The position numbers and the translations under genes were made by a program. Positions 9,723 through 30,840 of a stretch of 64,000 bases of DNA are shown here, piece by piece (position 1 is the first letter of the stretch; each line of letters opens with the position of its first letter). The stretch lies in assembly GCF_019312585.1 (NCBI RefSeq), contig NZ_JAHWDP010000002.1, positions 1 through 64,000 of the forward strand. Reading direction: 5' to 3'. Source of the DNA: Halomarinibacterium sedimenti. GTDB lineage: Bacteria > Bacteroidota > Bacteroidia > Flavobacteriales > Flavobacteriaceae. A model generated the notes under the pieces. The model had not been told where the DNA came from, made no database searches, and was given only the letters and a program-made list of their open reading frames with translations.

Positions 9723-12700
9723 ATGGTTTTAAATCAATTTAAACGGGTTTTTGTCTTTATCACCTTATTTCAGGTAATGGGGTTATATGCCCAACAGTCT
9801 TCAAGCATTTCAGATATTATTGATAAAATTTATGATTTAGAAAAAGAACGGGATCCCAAATGTTATGCTACCGCAAATAGACTTGAAGATTTTATGTATG
9901 GCACTCCACTAGAAGAAGAAGCCCGAAATTTAAAGATTGATATTCAGAAAGAATTTATTTATTATTTAAAGGAAAAAGGTTCTGCCCTTGCCAAAAACGG
10001 CAATCATTTAAAAATAAAAAGAATACACCTAGAGTCCGTATTGCAAGATTTAACCGAATACAAATTACTAGAAAATGGAAATTATCAATACAAACTCACT
10101 ACAGGAACCATTACTATAAACGCCAAGGATTATAGACAATACGCATCTGTTTCTTATGGATACCGTTCTTTATTATCGGTAGAGCAAGATTTATTTTATT
10201 TTTCTGAAAATAAGTTGTTGGCTTTTGATAGTGAAGCATTGCAACTTGCAAATGAATATGTAAATCTTATTACGTTAGTCACTTTAAAAATAGCCGACAT
10301 CAATGCTCGAAAAGCAAATGAAAAAACAATTTCTAAAGAACGATTAAAAGAAAGTTGGTTATTAATTCTAAATGAATCAAAAAACAAAAATTCTTTATCA
10401 ATTTCGAAGTATCCAAAACAAGATAGGAAAATAATAAAAGCTTCAGAAAACAATGAAATTCTTGAAGAAATAATAACTAAAAAAATCGAAGCCTATACAA
10501 CCTACAATCAGCTTTCAGAAAGTGTTTTTTTGAGAAATATTCAAGTGTATTTTGCACGTCAAAAATGGCCTACAGATTTACCAACTTCAAATAATCTTCG
10601 ATCCTACTATATAGAATCCTTAATTGGTTTTACAAAGTCTTTATTAGAACTTTCAAATAAAAATAGCTCAGCATCAAATTCTCAAATAATTCGACCTATT
10701 CAAGTTCAAAAAGCACTTCATTTATTTTTACCAAGTGAAACAAATACTTTTGAAGATGTCACCTTTTTTCCAAATAATTTGACTGAAAAAATTGCGATAG
10801 AATCCTACGATTTGGATGCCTTTCGAGATAGTGGATTTCATTGGAGGATATTAGGTTATGCCTTAGATGATTTAGCAAAAGAAAATATAAAAAGTATTGA
10901 TCCTAATGCAGCTGAACAATTGGTTGAAGGGATTGCACAATTTGGAGTATTGGTGCTTCGTGTAGCCGGAGAAATTTCAAAAAATGATGCTAAAACAGTT
11001 CTTGATATTTCAGCTATTGAAAAAGCACGTAAGCACATCCAATCCTTAATAAATACCTATGATTTTACGGATGTAAAGAAAGAGGTTTCTAAAATTAACT
11101 CATCAAATAATTCCTCAACATCATCAATTGGAAAATTTGATATTGTAAATAATATTACGGGGGTAGATTTTGAACATAAATCATCAGACTGGCTCAATAG
11201 GTTTATAAGAAGCTACTCAACATCCCTAGAAGAAAATGTTATTAAACTTTCAATACCACCTGCTTTTGGGGGATCTGGTGTGGCATGTGAGGACCTAAAC
11301 AACGATGGCTGGATGGACATTCTTCTTTTAGGAGGTTTTGGCAACAAGCTTTTGATTAATCAACAAAATGGAAGTTTTAAGGATGTTACCCAAAGTACCC
11401 TTTTAAACGCTTGGGACAATGACTTAAAGTCCTACGGTGAAGCAAGACAACCAATTATTGCAGATTTCGACAATAACGGGACACAGGATGTTTTTATCTC
11501 GTACGTCAACGCACAACATAAATTGTACAATAACCAAGGCGAATTAGAATTTGTGGATGTATCCAACATAGCTAATTTAGGAGGCGAAAATGCTGTAGCG
11601 GGTCCGGCAACGGCTTTCGACTTTGACAATGACGGATTGCTGGATATCTATATTGGTTATTTTGGAAATTACATTGAAGGGATACTTCCTACCATTAGAA
11701 GAGACAACCAAAATGGAATGCCTAACAAGCTCTTCAGGAATTTAGGAAATTTTAAGTTTGAAGAAGTTGATTATTTGCGCGACATTTCTTCAGATACAGG
11801 TTGGACTCAGGCGGTTGGTCACTCTGATATTAATCAAGATGGTTGGCAAGATGTTATTGTTGGCAATGATTTTGGAGTCAACAAATATTATATAAACAAC
11901 CAAGATGGTACTTTTTCTGAAATAAGCAAGCAATTAGGAACCGATAAGCCTTCCTATACTATGAACGTTGGGATCACCGATTTGAACGGAGATTTTTATC
12001 CAGATTTTTACATATCCAATATTGTAGTCATGCAAAAGGATGAAAAATATGTGAGTCCCAATGAAAATACCACCATGAAATTTGACCCAAAAAAAATGGC
12101 GAATATTAGAACGGTGGAAGCCAATGATTTGTTTCTATCTTCAGTTAATAATTCTGAAATTTCCTATCAACTTTCAGATAATATAGGAAGAGGATATTCG
12201 GCCACTGGTTGGTCTTGGGATGCCGATTTTTTTGACTTTGATAATGATGGAGACGAAGATTTGTATTGTTTAAATGGTATGAATGACTTCAGCGTATATT
12301 CTAGTGAAAATCCATTTTATTTTGAACGAGAAGAAGAATCAAAATCCATAGAATATGCCCAAAGTGATCGTGAAAAAAATGTATTCTTTGTAAATGAGGA
12401 GGGTATTCTTCTTAACAAGGCCGAAGAGTTTGCGCTCGATTTAAATAGCAATGCAAGAAGTGCTTCTTATTTCGATTTTGATGAAGATGGCGATCTTGAT
12501 ATTATTATCAATAATTATCATGAAAAGGCTACATTTCTAGAGAATAAAACATCCAATGAAAATGATTGGATTAAAATAAAACTCATTGGGAATCCAGAGG
12601 CTAAAATTAATAACGATGCTATAGGTTCTTCAATCATTATAAACGGAGCCATTTGGAGAGAAATTCACAGTACTACAGGATATCTATCAGTACATCCAAA

Positions 12701-24824: not shown

Positions 24825-25838
24825 ATGAATCGATTCAGTAGATATATCATTCAAGTACTACTCTGGCTAGGGATCTGGAGTCTGCTTTGGTTTTCTATCG
24901 GCAACCAAATGCAATTTCTTAGAGACAATGGGCCTGCCTTTGTGTTTCAAATACTCTTGCTTTTCCTATTTATCTACATGGCGGTTCCCCAATTACTATT
25001 TAAAAAGAAATACCTACTGTTCTTTATTGCCTCCATTTCAGCAATCTTACTAGGTGCCTATTTTGCTTCCGAAATGGGTCCAAAACCACCCATGGATAAA
25101 CCACCCCTCAACAATTTTGAGAGAAACCCTAGAGTGTTGCCCTCCCGATTCTTTATTCAATTATTAATACTTACCATTTCCTCGGTCATAGCGGTACTTT
25201 TAGAAACGTTTATAGATGCCCAACAAAAGGAAAAAAGCATTGCCATAGCAAAAGCAGAACTCATAGACAGTGAGCTTAAATTCCTTAAAATGCAGATCAA
25301 TCCGCATTTTCTTTTCAATGCCCTCAACAACATCTACGCCCTTTCGGTCACCAACTCCAACAAAACTCAGGAAAGTATTAGCACCCTTTCAGAAATGCTC
25401 CGCTACGTTATCTACGATTGCGAACAACCCAAAGTCCCGTTACGCAAAGAACTAGACTACATTACTAACTATATTGAGCTCTTTAAACTAAAAAGTAGCA
25501 ACCCCTTCGATATTTCGTTTACCCAAACCATCCAAAACGACCATGCCTTGGTGGCACCAATGCTTTTTGTACCTTACATAGAAAATGCCTTTAAGCATAG
25601 TGGCATCGAAAAGGGTAAGGATAATTACGTGCATATTTCGTTGGTACAAGAAGGACATACCATAGAGTTTACCGTAGAAAATAGCATTCCTACCACCGCT
25701 ATCTCTACCGATGCGCAAGGCGGAATTGGCTTACCCAATGTGCAAAAAAGATTGGAAATTCTGTATCCAGAAAAACACCAATTAACCATCACAAAAACCC
25801 GTAGCTTTACCGTCTATTTAAAACTAGAAATAGAATGA
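24825..25838 (+). CDS. LytS-type sensor histidine kinase
   Basis: A 337-residue membrane kinase with four predicted transmembrane helices in the first 130 residues and a His_kinase (LytS/YehU) domain. The phosphoacceptor is His161 in QINPHFLFNALN. The ATP-binding part carries PMLFVPYIENAFKHSG and GIGLPNVQKRLEILYP. It autophosphorylates and passes phosphate to the LytTR regulator, whose gene overlaps by 4 bases (ATGA). There is no large sensor domain, so the signal is probably sensed in the membrane. It is divergent from the EF-hand/YHYH/SCO cluster. Confidence 0.93.
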   Translation: MNRFSRYIIQVLLWLGIWSLLWFSIGNQMQFLRDNGPAFVFQILLLFLFIYMAVPQLLFKKKYLLFFIASISAILLGAYFASEMGPKPPMDKPPLNNFERNPRVLPSRFFIQLLILTISSVIAVLLETFIDAQQKEKSIAIAKAELIDSELKFLKMQINPHFLFNALNNIYALSVTNSNKTQESISTLSEMLRYVIYDCEQPKVPLRKELDYITNYIELFKLKSSNPFDISFTQTIQNDHALVAPMLFVPYIENAFKHSGIEKGKDNYVHISLVQEGHTIEFTVENSIPTTAISTDAQGGIGLPNVQKRLEILYPEKHQLTITKTRSFTVYLKLEIE

Positions 25839-26739: not shown

Positions 26740-27087
26740 ATGAAAGCATCTGTACAATACAACGATAGAATAGGGCACGCCGCAGCGGACATTGCAAATA
26801 TTAACTATAATCAAATAGCTGAACTTTGCAATTTAGGAGAAAGATTTACAATAATAGGAATTTCACTATACGGAACTGATGAGATTAGTGTATCGCTAAT
26901 ATGTAGAGATAATGTAGAAAGCACTAATGAAAATGAAGTTTTAGTTGATGTATTTCCAGCTGTGGAACTATCGGTTGGAGATGTTATGGAGCGACTTAAC
27001 GTAACCATTAACATTACTAATAATCTAATCTATGATGACCCAAATCTTGAAACTGATAGAGAACATACAATTGAGGAAGATGAATAA
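26740..27087 (+). CDS. Hypothetical protein in accessory region
   Basis: A 115-residue acidic protein without signal peptide or membrane segment, so probably cytoplasmic. I do not recognise a family. The N-terminal MKASVQYNDRIGHAAADIAN and middle FTIIGISLYGTDEISVSLI look like a compact alpha/beta fold. It lies between the LytTR operon and the helicase cassette in AT-rich DNA. A motif after its stop (27113-27135) resembles the one after the helicase cassette. It could be a small effector, antitoxin or cassette gene, but nothing in the sequence decides this. Confidence 0.7.
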   Translation: MKASVQYNDRIGHAAADIANINYNQIAELCNLGERFTIIGISLYGTDEISVSLICRDNVESTNENEVLVDVFPAVELSVGDVMERLNVTINITNNLIYDDPNLETDREHTIEEDE

Positions 27088-27250: not shown

Positions 27251-27260
27251 GTTGGCGGTA
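27251..27260. repeat. Left copy of 10-bp inverted repeat flanking helicase cassette
   Basis: GTTGGCGGTA, 60 bases before the helicase start. Its exact reverse complement is at 29947-29956, just after the partner gene stop. Confidence 0.65.
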
Positions 27261-27320
27261 ATAAAAGAAAAACACAATTATGAAATTCAAAAATCCTATT
27301 ATCTTTAGAAAAAATTATAA

Positions 27321-29324
27321 ATGAGTAGTTACTTTTTCCTTCACGCTGAAAAGAATGCGTTAAATGCAGGTCTTATTGATTCTCTAAAAGACTATTCTAA
27401 CCAGAAGCAAAGTTTAATTTATGTTCTTGATAGACCACTAACTGACCAAAAATATTCATATAAGTATTCAAAGGCATTAATTATACTTTCACCAAAGAAT
27501 AAAATTGCAATCATAAATTACGGAGATAATGATGAGCAGTTTGAAGATTACGTTGAAGATATAATCGAAGATATAGGCTCTATATCCGATAAATATCTCT
27601 ATAAAGATATTGTGGGAAGGCCTAGGAAGTGGAGAACCTCATTACTTGAAACTGAAATAGAATTAAACGAAATTAAGGATGTTGAAGATTTTCTAAAAGA
27701 ATTAGAAGTTAAAGATGAATCTAATAAGAAAAAATTAGATTTATTAATATCTCTATTTATTGGTAGTATAAACGACATAAATAGAGTTAAAGAAGAAGTT
27801 CCTATTACATTATTAGATAAAGTAAAGCAAAAAATTCAACTATTTGATGGCGACCAAACTAGATTTATTTATCAAAATCCAGATAAGAAAAAGATAAGAA
27901 TTCAAGGGCTTTCAGGTACTGGTAAAACTGAATTGCTTTTGCATAAATTGAAAGATTTATACATTAATGATAGCTCGTCTAAGATTTTCTTTACTTGCCA
28001 CAACAGGATACTTGCTGATAATCTAAAAAAAAGAATCCCAGACTTTTTCAATTTTATGAAAGTCGAACAACAAATTGAATGGGATAAAAGATTATGGTGT
28101 ACAAATGCTTGGGGTTCCAGTTCTTTCCCAAACTCTGGTGCTTACAGATATATTTGTGCTTTTTATAAAATTCCCTTCTATAGGTACTCATTTCAAATGT
28201 CTTTCAGCAAAGCTTGTAAAATGGCCATCGAGTCAATAAAAGAAAAATACATAGACTCTGATATTCCATATGCTCTAACTTATATGTTTATTGATGAAAG
28301 TCAGGACTTTGACGAAAATTTCTTTGAACTATGTGAACTAGTTACCGAAAAAAATGTATATGTAGCTGGAGATATTTTTCAAAGCATTTTCGATGAAAAC
28401 ATTTTAAGTTCTATTGAACCTGACTTTTTATTAGGCAAATGTTACCGAACAGATCCAAAAACTTTAATGTTCGCTCACGGACTAGGAATGGGACTTTTCG
28501 AAGAAACAAAATTGCGTTGGTTAGAAGAAAAAGAATGGAAGGATTGCGGATATAATGTAGAGGTGAAAAATTCAAATTACTATTTAAGTCGAGAACCCTT
28601 AAGAAGGTTTGAAGATTTGGATGAAAATTTTGAAAGTATTAGGATAGTTGAGGCAAAAGACACTTTTTCGGATAGTGTGATAAAAATTTTAAAAGAAATT
28701 ATATCTGAAAATGACACAGTCCAACCTGACGATATTGGTATAATTTTATTAGATTCTAGCAAAGATATTTATCGGTTTGCTGACATTGTACAGGTCAAAA
28801 TACAGCAAGAATTGGGTTGGATAGTTAATAAGGCTTATGAAACTAAAGAGAAACAACTAAACACATTATTAATTAGTAATAGGAATAATGTCAAAGGTTT
28901 AGAGTTTCCATTTGTCATTTGTGTTACTAAAAGAATAACAGATAGTCCAAGTTATAGAAATTCACTTTACACAATGTTAACTCGTTCGTTTATAAAATCG
29001 TTTTTTCTTACTCAGCCTGGTAACAAATCTGGACTTACTGTTGGAATGCAAGAAGGATTAGAGCATATAGTTTTAGAAAAAGAAATGGTAATTAAAGAAC
29101 CTACGGAAGCAGAAAAGGAAAAAATTCGTACACGTTTCAAATACAGCTTGAAGAAATTATCACATTTTGATTTAATGATGGAAATTTTTAAAGAGTTAAA
29201 AATCGAAAAGAAATACCAAGATAAATTACTTCAGGCTACACAACAAATGGATATGATTGAAAGTGATCAGTTGACTTTAAAGGACTTTGTTAAGGATAAT
29301 CTTAAATATGTTAAGGGTAAATGA
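27321..29324 (+). CDS. SF1 (UvrD/Rep-like) helicase or ATP-binding protein
   Basis: A 667-residue protein with superfamily 1 helicase motifs: Walker A GLSGTGKTE (about 195-203), motif II FIDESQD (about 323-329), motif III VAGDIFQS (about 349-356), motif V VKGLEF (about 523-528) and motif VI TMLTRS (about 550-556). The first ~190 residues and the last ~80 are not recognised and may confer nuclease or partner binding. It should act on nucleic acids in the cytoplasm using ATP. It overlaps the 206-residue partner gene by 4 bases. The pair sits between inverted repeats, as an accessory module would. A defence role is inference. Confidence 0.82.
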   Translation: MSSYFFLHAEKNALNAGLIDSLKDYSNQKQSLIYVLDRPLTDQKYSYKYSKALIILSPKNKIAIINYGDNDEQFEDYVEDIIEDIGSISDKYLYKDIVGRPRKWRTSLLETEIELNEIKDVEDFLKELEVKDESNKKKLDLLISLFIGSINDINRVKEEVPITLLDKVKQKIQLFDGDQTRFIYQNPDKKKIRIQGLSGTGKTELLLHKLKDLYINDSSSKIFFTCHNRILADNLKKRIPDFFNFMKVEQQIEWDKRLWCTNAWGSSSFPNSGAYRYICAFYKIPFYRYSFQMSFSKACKMAIESIKEKYIDSDIPYALTYMFIDESQDFDENFFELCELVTEKNVYVAGDIFQSIFDENILSSIEPDFLLGKCYRTDPKTLMFAHGLGMGLFEETKLRWLEEKEWKDCGYNVEVKNSNYYLSREPLRRFEDLDENFESIRIVEAKDTFSDSVIKILKEIISENDTVQPDDIGIILLDSSKDIYRFADIVQVKIQQELGWIVNKAYETKEKQLNTLLISNRNNVKGLEFPFVICVTKRITDSPSYRNSLYTMLTRSFIKSFFLTQPGNKSGLTVGMQEGLEHIVLEKEMVIKEPTEAEKEKIRTRFKYSLKKLSHFDLMMEIFKELKIEKKYQDKLLQATQQMDMIESDQLTLKDFVKDNLKYVKGK

Positions 29325-29941
29325 AAATTATTAATCGTGATATCTTACCTTTTCAAGAAGACGATTTTTTTTCGCCTTTGAGGGACAAAATAGATTATGC
29401 TAGATTAGTTGTCTTCGCAACAAGGTATCTTCTGCTTAATATTGATACATCTACTTCTAATTGTAAATGCAAACTCAAAATATGTGTTGACAAAATGAGC
29501 AGACTTTTTTTTTATCGACAGGATAAATTTTTTAGTGTAGCATTCCCTTTTTCAGTTATTACCGAAGATGATGAAATAGTCGAAATAAGTTCCTTTTCAG
29601 GAATTTCGATAGATAGTAAGGCTTTATCAAGTGTCTTATCTATTCTAGAAGATTCTAGTTTTAAATTAAATCCCTCGGTAACTGATTATTACATCGAATC
29701 TAATACAGTTGAAAATATTGGGATATCTCTGTTAGAAGAAATATTTCAATCAGAACCATCCTATGTAAGATATGATTATGATCCAAAATATGTAAATGGT
29801 AGATTGCATCCCCTTCATCATCTCGATATCAACTATTCCTCATATGGCACATATAAACTAGGATTGAATAATTCAATTGCAATAGATTACTTTGATAATA
29901 TTTTGAATTTGAATACTGATTGTACGTATTTAGAGGATTAA
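29321..29941 (+). CDS. Helicase-associated hypothetical protein (possibly DUF2290-like)
   Basis: A 206-residue protein translationally coupled to the helicase (ATGA). No signal peptide or membrane span. The segment VRYDYDPKYVNGRLHPLHHLDINY (about 148-171) with R-x-D and H-x-x-x-HH patterns reminds me of DUF2290, but I cannot confirm this. Cysteines in TSNCKCKLKIC (about 46-56) are clustered. Strict coupling suggests a complex or matched dose with the helicase. It could be a regulator, nuclease or sensor subunit. Confidence 0.72.
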   Translation: MKIINRDILPFQEDDFFSPLRDKIDYARLVVFATRYLLLNIDTSTSNCKCKLKICVDKMSRLFFYRQDKFFSVAFPFSVITEDDEIVEISSFSGISIDSKALSSVLSILEDSSFKLNPSVTDYYIESNTVENIGISLLEEIFQSEPSYVRYDYDPKYVNGRLHPLHHLDINYSSYGTYKLGLNNSIAIDYFDNILNLNTDCTYLED

Positions 29942-29946
29942 AATAC

Positions 29947-29956
29947 TACCGCCAAC
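29947..29956. repeat. Right copy of 10-bp inverted repeat flanking helicase cassette
   Basis: TACCGCCAAC, 5 bases after the partner gene stop; exact reverse complement of 27251-27260. Confidence 0.65.
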
Positions 29957-30634: not shown

Positions 30635-30653
30635 CACTGAGCCTGTCGAAGTG
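30635..30653. repeat. REP-like palindrome (CACTGAGC...GAAGTG)
   Basis: A 19-bp element with CACT/AGTG ends, starting CACTGAGCCTGTCG. I recall near-identical dispersed elements in many bacterial genomes, often intergenic. The 20-bp element inside mnmE at 31947 has the same layout. Confidence 0.65.
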
Positions 30654-30654
30654 T

Positions 30655-30709
30655 CAAAGCCCAGTCAAAGCCCAGTCAAAGCCCAGTCAAAGTCCAGTCA
30701 AAGTCCAGT
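30655..30709 (+). repeat. 11-bp tandem repeat, five copies
   Basis: Five head-to-tail copies of CAAAGYCCAGT (three with C, two with T at the variable position), followed by a partial copy. The first copy begins directly after the REP-like palindrome. Confidence 0.92.
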
Positions 30710-30735
30710 CAAAGTAGGGTGTATCCAAAAACCAA

Positions 30736-30840
30736 TTCACCCTTCACCCTTCACCCTTCACCCTTCACCCTTCACCCTTCACCCTTCACCCTTCACCCTT
30801 CACCCTTTACCCTTTACCCTTCACCCTTTACCCTTCACAA
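30736..30840 (+). repeat. 7-bp tandem repeat, 15 copies (TTYACCC)
   Basis: Ten TTCACCC units, then TTTACCC twice, TTCACCC, TTTACCC and a degenerate TTCACAA: 105 bp in 7-bp phase. The minus strand is (GGGTGAA)n, with G-triplets every 7 bases, so it can form G-quadruplexes. It ends 16 bp before the mnmE -7 element. Confidence 0.95.

Follow-up and report, generated by a model that had tools for sequence, protein, structure and literature searches.

Two tightly coupled genes lie on the forward strand of the window, by which we mean the whole stretch of 64,000 nucleotides from Halomarinibacterium sedimenti that was analysed (Table 1). The first encodes an SF1 helicase of 667 residues and the second a partner protein of 206 residues, and the start codon of the partner overlaps the stop codon of the helicase by four bases (ATGA), as the earlier note had described. 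Its description of an AT-rich stretch is likewise accurate: the GC content of this stretch is 29-31%, compared to 37-40% upstream and 46-47% downstream.

Table 1. Coordinates of the helicase gene, the partner gene and their conserved parts in the window.
Feature	Position	Strand	Basis or residues
SF1 helicase, STM2767 family (NF053713)	27321..29324	+	NCBIfam, AlphaFold2, Foldseek
Helicase N-terminal accessory domain, ~residues 1-180	27321..27860	+	predicted secondary structure; without family match
Helicase motif I (Walker A), GLSGTGKTE	27906..27932	+	residues 196-204
Helicase motif II, FIDESQDF	28287..28310	+	residues 323-330
Helicase motif III, AGDIFQSIF	28365..28391	+	residues 349-357
Helicase motif IV, KCYRTDP	28437..28457	+	residues 373-379
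Helicase motif V, NNVKGLEFPFV	28884..28916	+	residues 522-532
Helicase motif VI, SLYTMLTRSF	28962..28991	+	residues 548-557
Partner, STM2766 family helicase-associated protein (NF053714)	29321..29941	+	NCBIfam, AlphaFold2
Conserved partner core, residues 148-181, YxRxDxD...HPxxHxD...KxG	29762..29863	+	invariant residues; DUF2290 profile match

The set of SF1 motifs is complete, as had been claimed, since motif Ia (residues 224-228) was found in addition to the motifs of Table 1. These motifs are largely invariant among the relatives: in the alignment of 19 sequences no change is seen at G196, G199, G201, K202, T203 and E204 of motif I or at D325, E326, Q328 and D329 of motif II. The Pfam domain UvrD_C_2 matches residues 518-561 (E=5.9e-9), over motif V. 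The AlphaFold2 model of the helicase (mean pLDDT 85.7) has its best Foldseek matches in SLFN11/14, followed by UPF1, Dna2, RecD and UvrD. The matches to the helicase part of Schlafen 11/14 (E 1.9e-14 to 6e-12) come with low TM-scores (0.33-0.36) and about 10% identity, and we take them as general similarity of the SF1 core and claim no kinship. Sequence searches against solved structures matched only fragments of the protein.

The earlier note left the N-terminal and C-terminal parts of the helicase unassigned, which is not correct, as the NCBIfam family profile spans residues 2-662. Pfam has no domain for the N-terminal part at E<=10. The predicted order of secondary structure elements in the first ~180 residues, beta-alpha-beta-beta-beta-alpha-beta, is that of a restriction-endonuclease-like fold, and a relic of a NERD/PD-(D/E)XK nuclease was considered; the order is suggestive, but the profiles give it no support and no ExK residues are visible in the alignment at the expected strand, and the candidate was set aside.

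The partner was said to contain a D-Y-D/H-rich segment, and this segment proved to be its most conserved part: all 19 aligned sequences agree at Y148, R150, D152, D154, H163, P164, H167, D169, K179 and G181. In the AlphaFold2 model (mean pLDDT 86.9, pTM 0.85) these residues lie on or beside three predicted C-terminal strands (148-153, 166-171 and 178-181), and a hydrolase or nuclease site might be built from R150, D152, D154, H163, H167, D169 and K179. The clustered cysteines that had also been pointed out (C48, C50 and C55) are present in the window copy but are not conserved in the relatives; thus there is no conserved metal site, and the idea of a zinc site was dropped. Foldseek gave no match of the partner model to PDB or viral structures better than E 0.02, and sequence searches against solved structures returned nothing meaningful. 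A sliding-clamp-like fold, which appeared among the Foldseek results at E 0.02 and worse with a TM-score of about 0.17, was judged to be noise. Since the model has no structural match, an effector activity of the partner is conjecture.

Comparison of the window with five relatives gave dN of 0.14-0.21 with saturated dS for the helicase, and dN of 0.24-0.41 for the partner, with dS of 1.6-2.4 in four of the five comparisons. Both genes are under purifying selection.

The surroundings of the pair were searched for signs of its arrival. The inverted repeats by which the stretch had been said to be bounded amount to a match over 13 bases, one of them mismatched (GTTGGCGGTARTA, at about 27251-27263 and 29944-29956), and a 13-base inverted match is reached in about 5% of trials with resampled flanks. 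The motif is not enriched in the window genome (15 matches, against 23 for the reversed control) and could not be made out by eye beside the pair in relatives, and we rejected the repeats as mobile ends of an insertion. Among 14 relatives searched, none offered a clean empty site to compare with the window locus, because synteny upstream of mnmE is broken even within the genus and the histidine-kinase-type neighbor at 24825-25838 has a similar protein in only one of the 14 at E<=1e-60. Just upstream of mnmE there are two tandem arrays, an 11-mer (GTCAAAGCCCA) repeated 5.6 times at 30653-30714 and the 7-mer TTCACCC repeated 14.7 times at 30736-30838; homology to the relatives begins at about 30848, right after these arrays, which suggests a rearrangement breakpoint. 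The adjoining gene upstream of the helicase (26740-27087, 115 residues) is indeed an orphan, without a family match and without relatives in 24 genomes of the family or in plasmids. No counterpart of it was noticed at other loci of the pair, and it was rejected as a third component. Ten neighboring proteins of the window had no PADLOC match at E<=1e-10, and the window pair is outside any recognised defence island.

Both genes can be assigned to named families. The helicase matches NF053713 ('STM2767 family DEAD/DEAH box helicase') with 918.5 bits and E=2.3e-276 over residues 2-662 of 667, and the partner matches NF053714 ('STM2766 family helicase-associated protein') with 222.8 bits and E=3.7e-66 over residues 4-205, the cut-offs being 550 and 70 bits, respectively. 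Judged by sequence, the pair is therefore a full-length member of the STM2767/STM2766 family, far above the NCBIfam cut-offs, whereas the earlier note had matched neither gene to a named system. The window pair has the same gene order and tight coupling as the rest of the family and shows no difference beyond membership. The family is named after locus tags of Salmonella Typhimurium, and our literature search found no functional study, phage test or plasmid experiment for any of its members. In PADLOC 2.0.0 (2023) the helicase is matched partially by PDLC03002 'Helicase' (E 6.7e-25, best stretch residues 117-360) and the partner is matched by nothing, including the DUF2290 models PDLC02998 and PDLC02999. 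This version of PADLOC misses the STM2767/STM2766 pair; later catalogues may already include it.

One would argue that an SF1 UvrD-like helicase within a two-gene module is a Gabija-like system, in which a GajB helicase lacks GajA or has been separated from it. PADLOC does give GajB matches to the window helicase, which are short and confined to the helicase motifs (best E 1.6e-4 over 65 residues). However, the match to the helicase of Helicase+DUF2290 is far stronger (6.7e-25), the second gene belongs to the STM2766 family, PADLOC found no GajA (the OLD-family ATPase-TOPRIM nuclease) among the ten neighbors in the window, and no OLD/TOPRIM gene was noticed in the other neighborhoods that were read. 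Thus membership in Gabija is refuted, and of the comparison made in the earlier note a remote analogy survives.

The system named by PDLC03002 offers a much closer comparison. The profile of the window helicase family and that of DUF2290-type helicases align with Prob 100 and E 8.8e-50 over 496 columns, 23% of them identical, and it is certain from this comparison that the helicases of the two families are homologous. The partner is related more distantly: Pfam DUF2290 (PF10053) matches residues 138-191 below threshold (13.8 bits against a cut-off of 25, E 0.038), and the two profiles align with Prob 89 and E 2e-6 over 50 C-terminal columns. Since the E-value of such a pairwise comparison is an approximation, the profile was also reversed and shuffled as a control: the comparison of partner and DUF2290 scores 46-47, the reversed profile 10-12 and 60 column shuffles 19.6 at most. 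The core that both protein families have in common reads R[YF]DxD...HPxxH...[KR].

The two kinds of module also resemble each other in organization. The helicase comes first and the partner overlaps or adjoins it, both in our pair and in the DUF2290 loci (e.g. L048, L051-L056, L058, L067-L070). In a tblastn search of plasmids, the next-best helicase matches beyond the family (24-28% identity) include DUF2290-type helicases, and in the four records that were opened a DUF2290-annotated gene stands directly downstream. A scan of 296 Bacteroidota genomes found DUF2290 in six, and in all six the gene follows such a helicase; the examples scanned with PADLOC are PDLC03002 helicases (about 520-1085 bits over their length) with PDLC02998/02999 partners. 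Carriage by phages, satellites and plasmids is a further likeness. There are differences as well. The helicases of the STM2767 family are about 660-680 residues long, compared to about 700-720 in Helicase+DUF2290, the N-terminal domains of the two helicase types give no significant profile match, and a maximum-likelihood tree without an outgroup sets the two helicase groups cleanly apart (100/100). The window helicase matches PDLC03002 over a part of its length, and the partner reaches the threshold of none of the models PF10053, PDLC02998 and PDLC02999; by the models that define Helicase+DUF2290 the pair is therefore not a member of it. Taken together, the profiles and the gene order indicate a relative of Helicase+DUF2290, most simply a diverged sister.

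This kinship is of importance, as Helicase+DUF2290 is a system of P4 satellites, one module of which was found in experiments to inhibit phage T7 (Rousset 2022, PMC9122126). For the STM2767/STM2766 family we found no published phage phenotype, so the support for a role in defence comes from homology and context. In Pseudomonas aeruginosa PAO1, the genes PA1372/PA1371 are annotated as Helicase+DUF2290 (PMC11637435), the one such system that PADLOC reports in this strain (PMC11878078), and mutations that abolish the function of PA1372 alleviate the fitness cost of plasmid pNUK73 together with the transcriptional disturbance and the high expression of rep (PMC4410645). This link suggests that such modules react to plasmid replication; the literature that we searched gives no mechanism for the T7 block or for the plasmid effect of PA1372.

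The closest relatives of the helicase are found in Psychroflexus, Wocania and Gilvibacter, and the relatives at 65-80% identity comprise these three, a Bacteroidales MAG, Psychrobacter and one phage contig. The family extends over Bacteroidota, Gammaproteobacteria and Lactobacillales, and it is rare in Bacteroidota: 2 of 395 Bacteroidota genomes exceed the cut-off, and a full-length match is present in 2 of 60 searched genomes (one being the window genome itself). In E. coli, a DNA-level match was found in 37 of 5,426 genomes. In the tree the Psychrobacter copy (65% identity), although from a gammaproteobacterium, groups with the Bacteroidota clade, while the Acinetobacter plasmid copy does not. 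The helicase tree does not follow taxonomy, and the pair, as far as the sequences tell, spreads horizontally.

These distributions bear on the possibility that we deal with a housekeeping enzyme, i.e. a chromosomal helicase for DNA repair or replication restart together with its cofactor. The UvrD-like match in the C-terminal part and the structural similarity to UvrD, Dna2 and RecD would fit such a role. Nevertheless, its sporadic occurrence (the 2 of 395 and 2 of 60 genomes above), the departure of the tree from taxonomy, the carriage by phages and the lack of constant neighbors largely refute it, and we regard it as very improbable. A single conserved housekeeping context, or a repair family with constant neighbors, which the earlier note had named as grounds against its own reading, was looked for and not found.

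The genes around the pair differ from carrier to carrier; apart from ten flanking proteins on these contigs that were scanned, their identities come from reading of the ORFs or from the annotation of the records. In Gilvibacter the pair adjoins a tyrosine recombinase, and mobilisation-type genes follow at a greater distance; in Psychroflexus it stands near a recombinase and type I restriction-modification (RM) genes. The Psychroflexus locus (L039, pair at about 10001-12619) also has two direct copies of a 57-bp sequence, 98% identical to each other, one about 0.7 kb before the pair and the other 0.1 kb beyond it, which may have been left by an insertion or a duplication. A copy on a Lactococcus plasmid (L046) is flanked by a similar repeat of 26 bp. 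On plasmids, the pair adjoins type I RM in Lacticaseibacillus, methyltransferase genes in Lactococcus, and AbiJ-NTD4 and PemK in Pantoea; an Acinetobacter plasmid and a Salmonella IncHI2 plasmid are further carriers.

Phages and prophages carry the pair at several sites. In a Bacteroidales phage contig its neighbors are the portal gene on one side and the major head protein gene on the other. It is also found in prophage tail regions at two loci (L042 and L085), and between NinB and DnaB in a lambdoid phage (L074), whose ORF order recurs in L080 and L084. A separate observation concerns an inovirus-like contig (L077:3954-5336), in which the pair comes right after a Zot-like gene and makes an unusually large cargo for a filamentous phage. 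In an E. coli P2-like prophage the pair is located between the replication gene (gpA) and portal gene Q (gpQ), and viral contigs L073, L075 and L076 have the same arrangement. This site of P2 is a hotspot of anti-phage systems that also carries non-defence genes, e.g. partition systems (Rousset et al., PMC9122126), and for that reason the location can be read as suggestive only. The search for the pair in defence islands, as had been proposed, thus gave a divided answer: elsewhere it occupies the P2 hotspot and neighbors RM genes, but the window copy is outside such an island.

The two genes stay together. Among the viral contigs, the helicase query found 16 loci and the partner query 15, all of them among the 16, and in the sixteenth (L072) the partner was recognised by its ORF, so that it is present in all 16 helicase-bearing contigs. 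Both genes are also present in all plasmid and E. coli loci that were read, and IMG/VR contigs match both; neither gene had a match in the phage records of INPHARED. The window helicase is matched by two PHROG families, apparently the halves of one split helicase.

A locus without genes of a mobile element was found in Psychrobacter glacincola (L036:8605-11520). Here polA stands on one side of the pair and a repeated, diverged polA 3' end on the other (about 11464-11508; 45 matched bases, 82% identity), and in other Psychrobacter genomes (e.g. L160 and L161) polA adjoins the downstream flank, with no pair in between. On sequence comparison this copy looks like a site-specific insertion of two genes and about 2.9 kb, which has att-like ends but brings no recombinase gene along.

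It could be that the pair serves its carrier, i.e. helps phage or plasmid DNA to replicate, recombine or be packaged, and does not exclude competitors. Phages and plasmids do carry it, SF1 helicases with accessory proteins are common in the replication of such elements, and the lambdoid copies sit within the replication and recombination region between NinB and DnaB. However, the carriers have unrelated ways of replicating (P2-like, lambdoid, inovirus-like and plasmid), most of their relatives are without the pair, the Psychrobacter copy at polA stands alone in the chromosome with no element genes, and the sister system inhibits T7 (PMC9122126). We therefore consider service to the element unlikely.

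Three of the 16 viral contigs carry a broken gene, frameshifted or split: the helicase in L091 and L100, the partner in L095. Such degraded copies suggest a cost and would suit a pair of the toxin-antitoxin or abortive-infection type, with a toxic protein, a second one that restrains it, and maintenance of the two by addiction as much as by defence. Two overlapping genes on mobile elements and a small partner with conserved charged residues agree with this as well. Yet nothing indicates toxicity of either gene, and L091 and L100 keep an intact partner beside a broken helicase, which argues against a lethal partner set free by loss of the helicase. Addiction of this kind appears rather improbable to us, and it and defence are not mutually exclusive.

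We therefore favor the reading of the pair as a self-contained, horizontally mobile two-gene interference module, in which the helicase would be the sensor and the partner the effector, and we put its probability at roughly 0.7. The pair is mobile as a unit and is distantly related to a proven anti-phage system, and thus it is probably a defence module; the two-gene defence module put forward in the earlier note is also the reading best supported here, by homology to Helicase+DUF2290 and by context. That the pair acts against mobile genetic elements, phages or plasmids, is likely. The division into a sensing helicase and an executing partner has about an even chance, and that the partner is specifically a nuclease is tentative and leans to the doubtful side.

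The module could work as follows, in analogy to helicase-containing systems such as Gabija and Hachiman. Both proteins would be made together from the overlapping genes and act together, possibly as a physical complex. The SF1 helicase would load on single-stranded DNA, DNA ends or abnormal replication intermediates that an invading phage or plasmid gives rise to, and its movement, driven by ATP, would license the partner, by releasing or activating it. The partner would then use the conserved R-D-D/H-H-D/K pocket in its C-terminal core to damage nucleic acid or otherwise stop replication, of the invader or of the infected cell. We infer the roles of sensor and effector, an enzymatic activity of the partner and the activity of the window member itself. 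With regard to known defence systems, Hachiman (HamA/HamB) is comparable by analogy only, HamB being an SF2 helicase and HamA belonging to an unrelated nuclease family. Its general plan of a sensor helicase with an effector is analogous (PMC12278908).

A bolder proposal, which we hold at a little less than even odds, is that STM2767/STM2766 is an anti-phage or anti-plasmid system missing from PADLOC, which very different phages, plasmids and minimal insertions of two genes have carried across phyla. Its partner would form, together with DUF2290, a new effector superfamily with YxRxDxD...HPxxHxD...KxG as its active site and a fold absent from the PDB, switched on when the SF1 helicase recognises foreign DNA in the course of replication.

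A pair of genes whose only names are Salmonella locus tags, and which occurs in Bacteroidota, Gammaproteobacteria and Lactobacillales, is now linked to a system with proven activity against phage. The biochemistry of both families is narrowed to one testable set of conserved partner residues, namely R150, D152, D154, H163, H167, D169 and K179. Finally, the part played by the sister system in the cost of a plasmid in Pseudomonas raises the question of whether these helicases sense replication that is initiated by foreign replication proteins.
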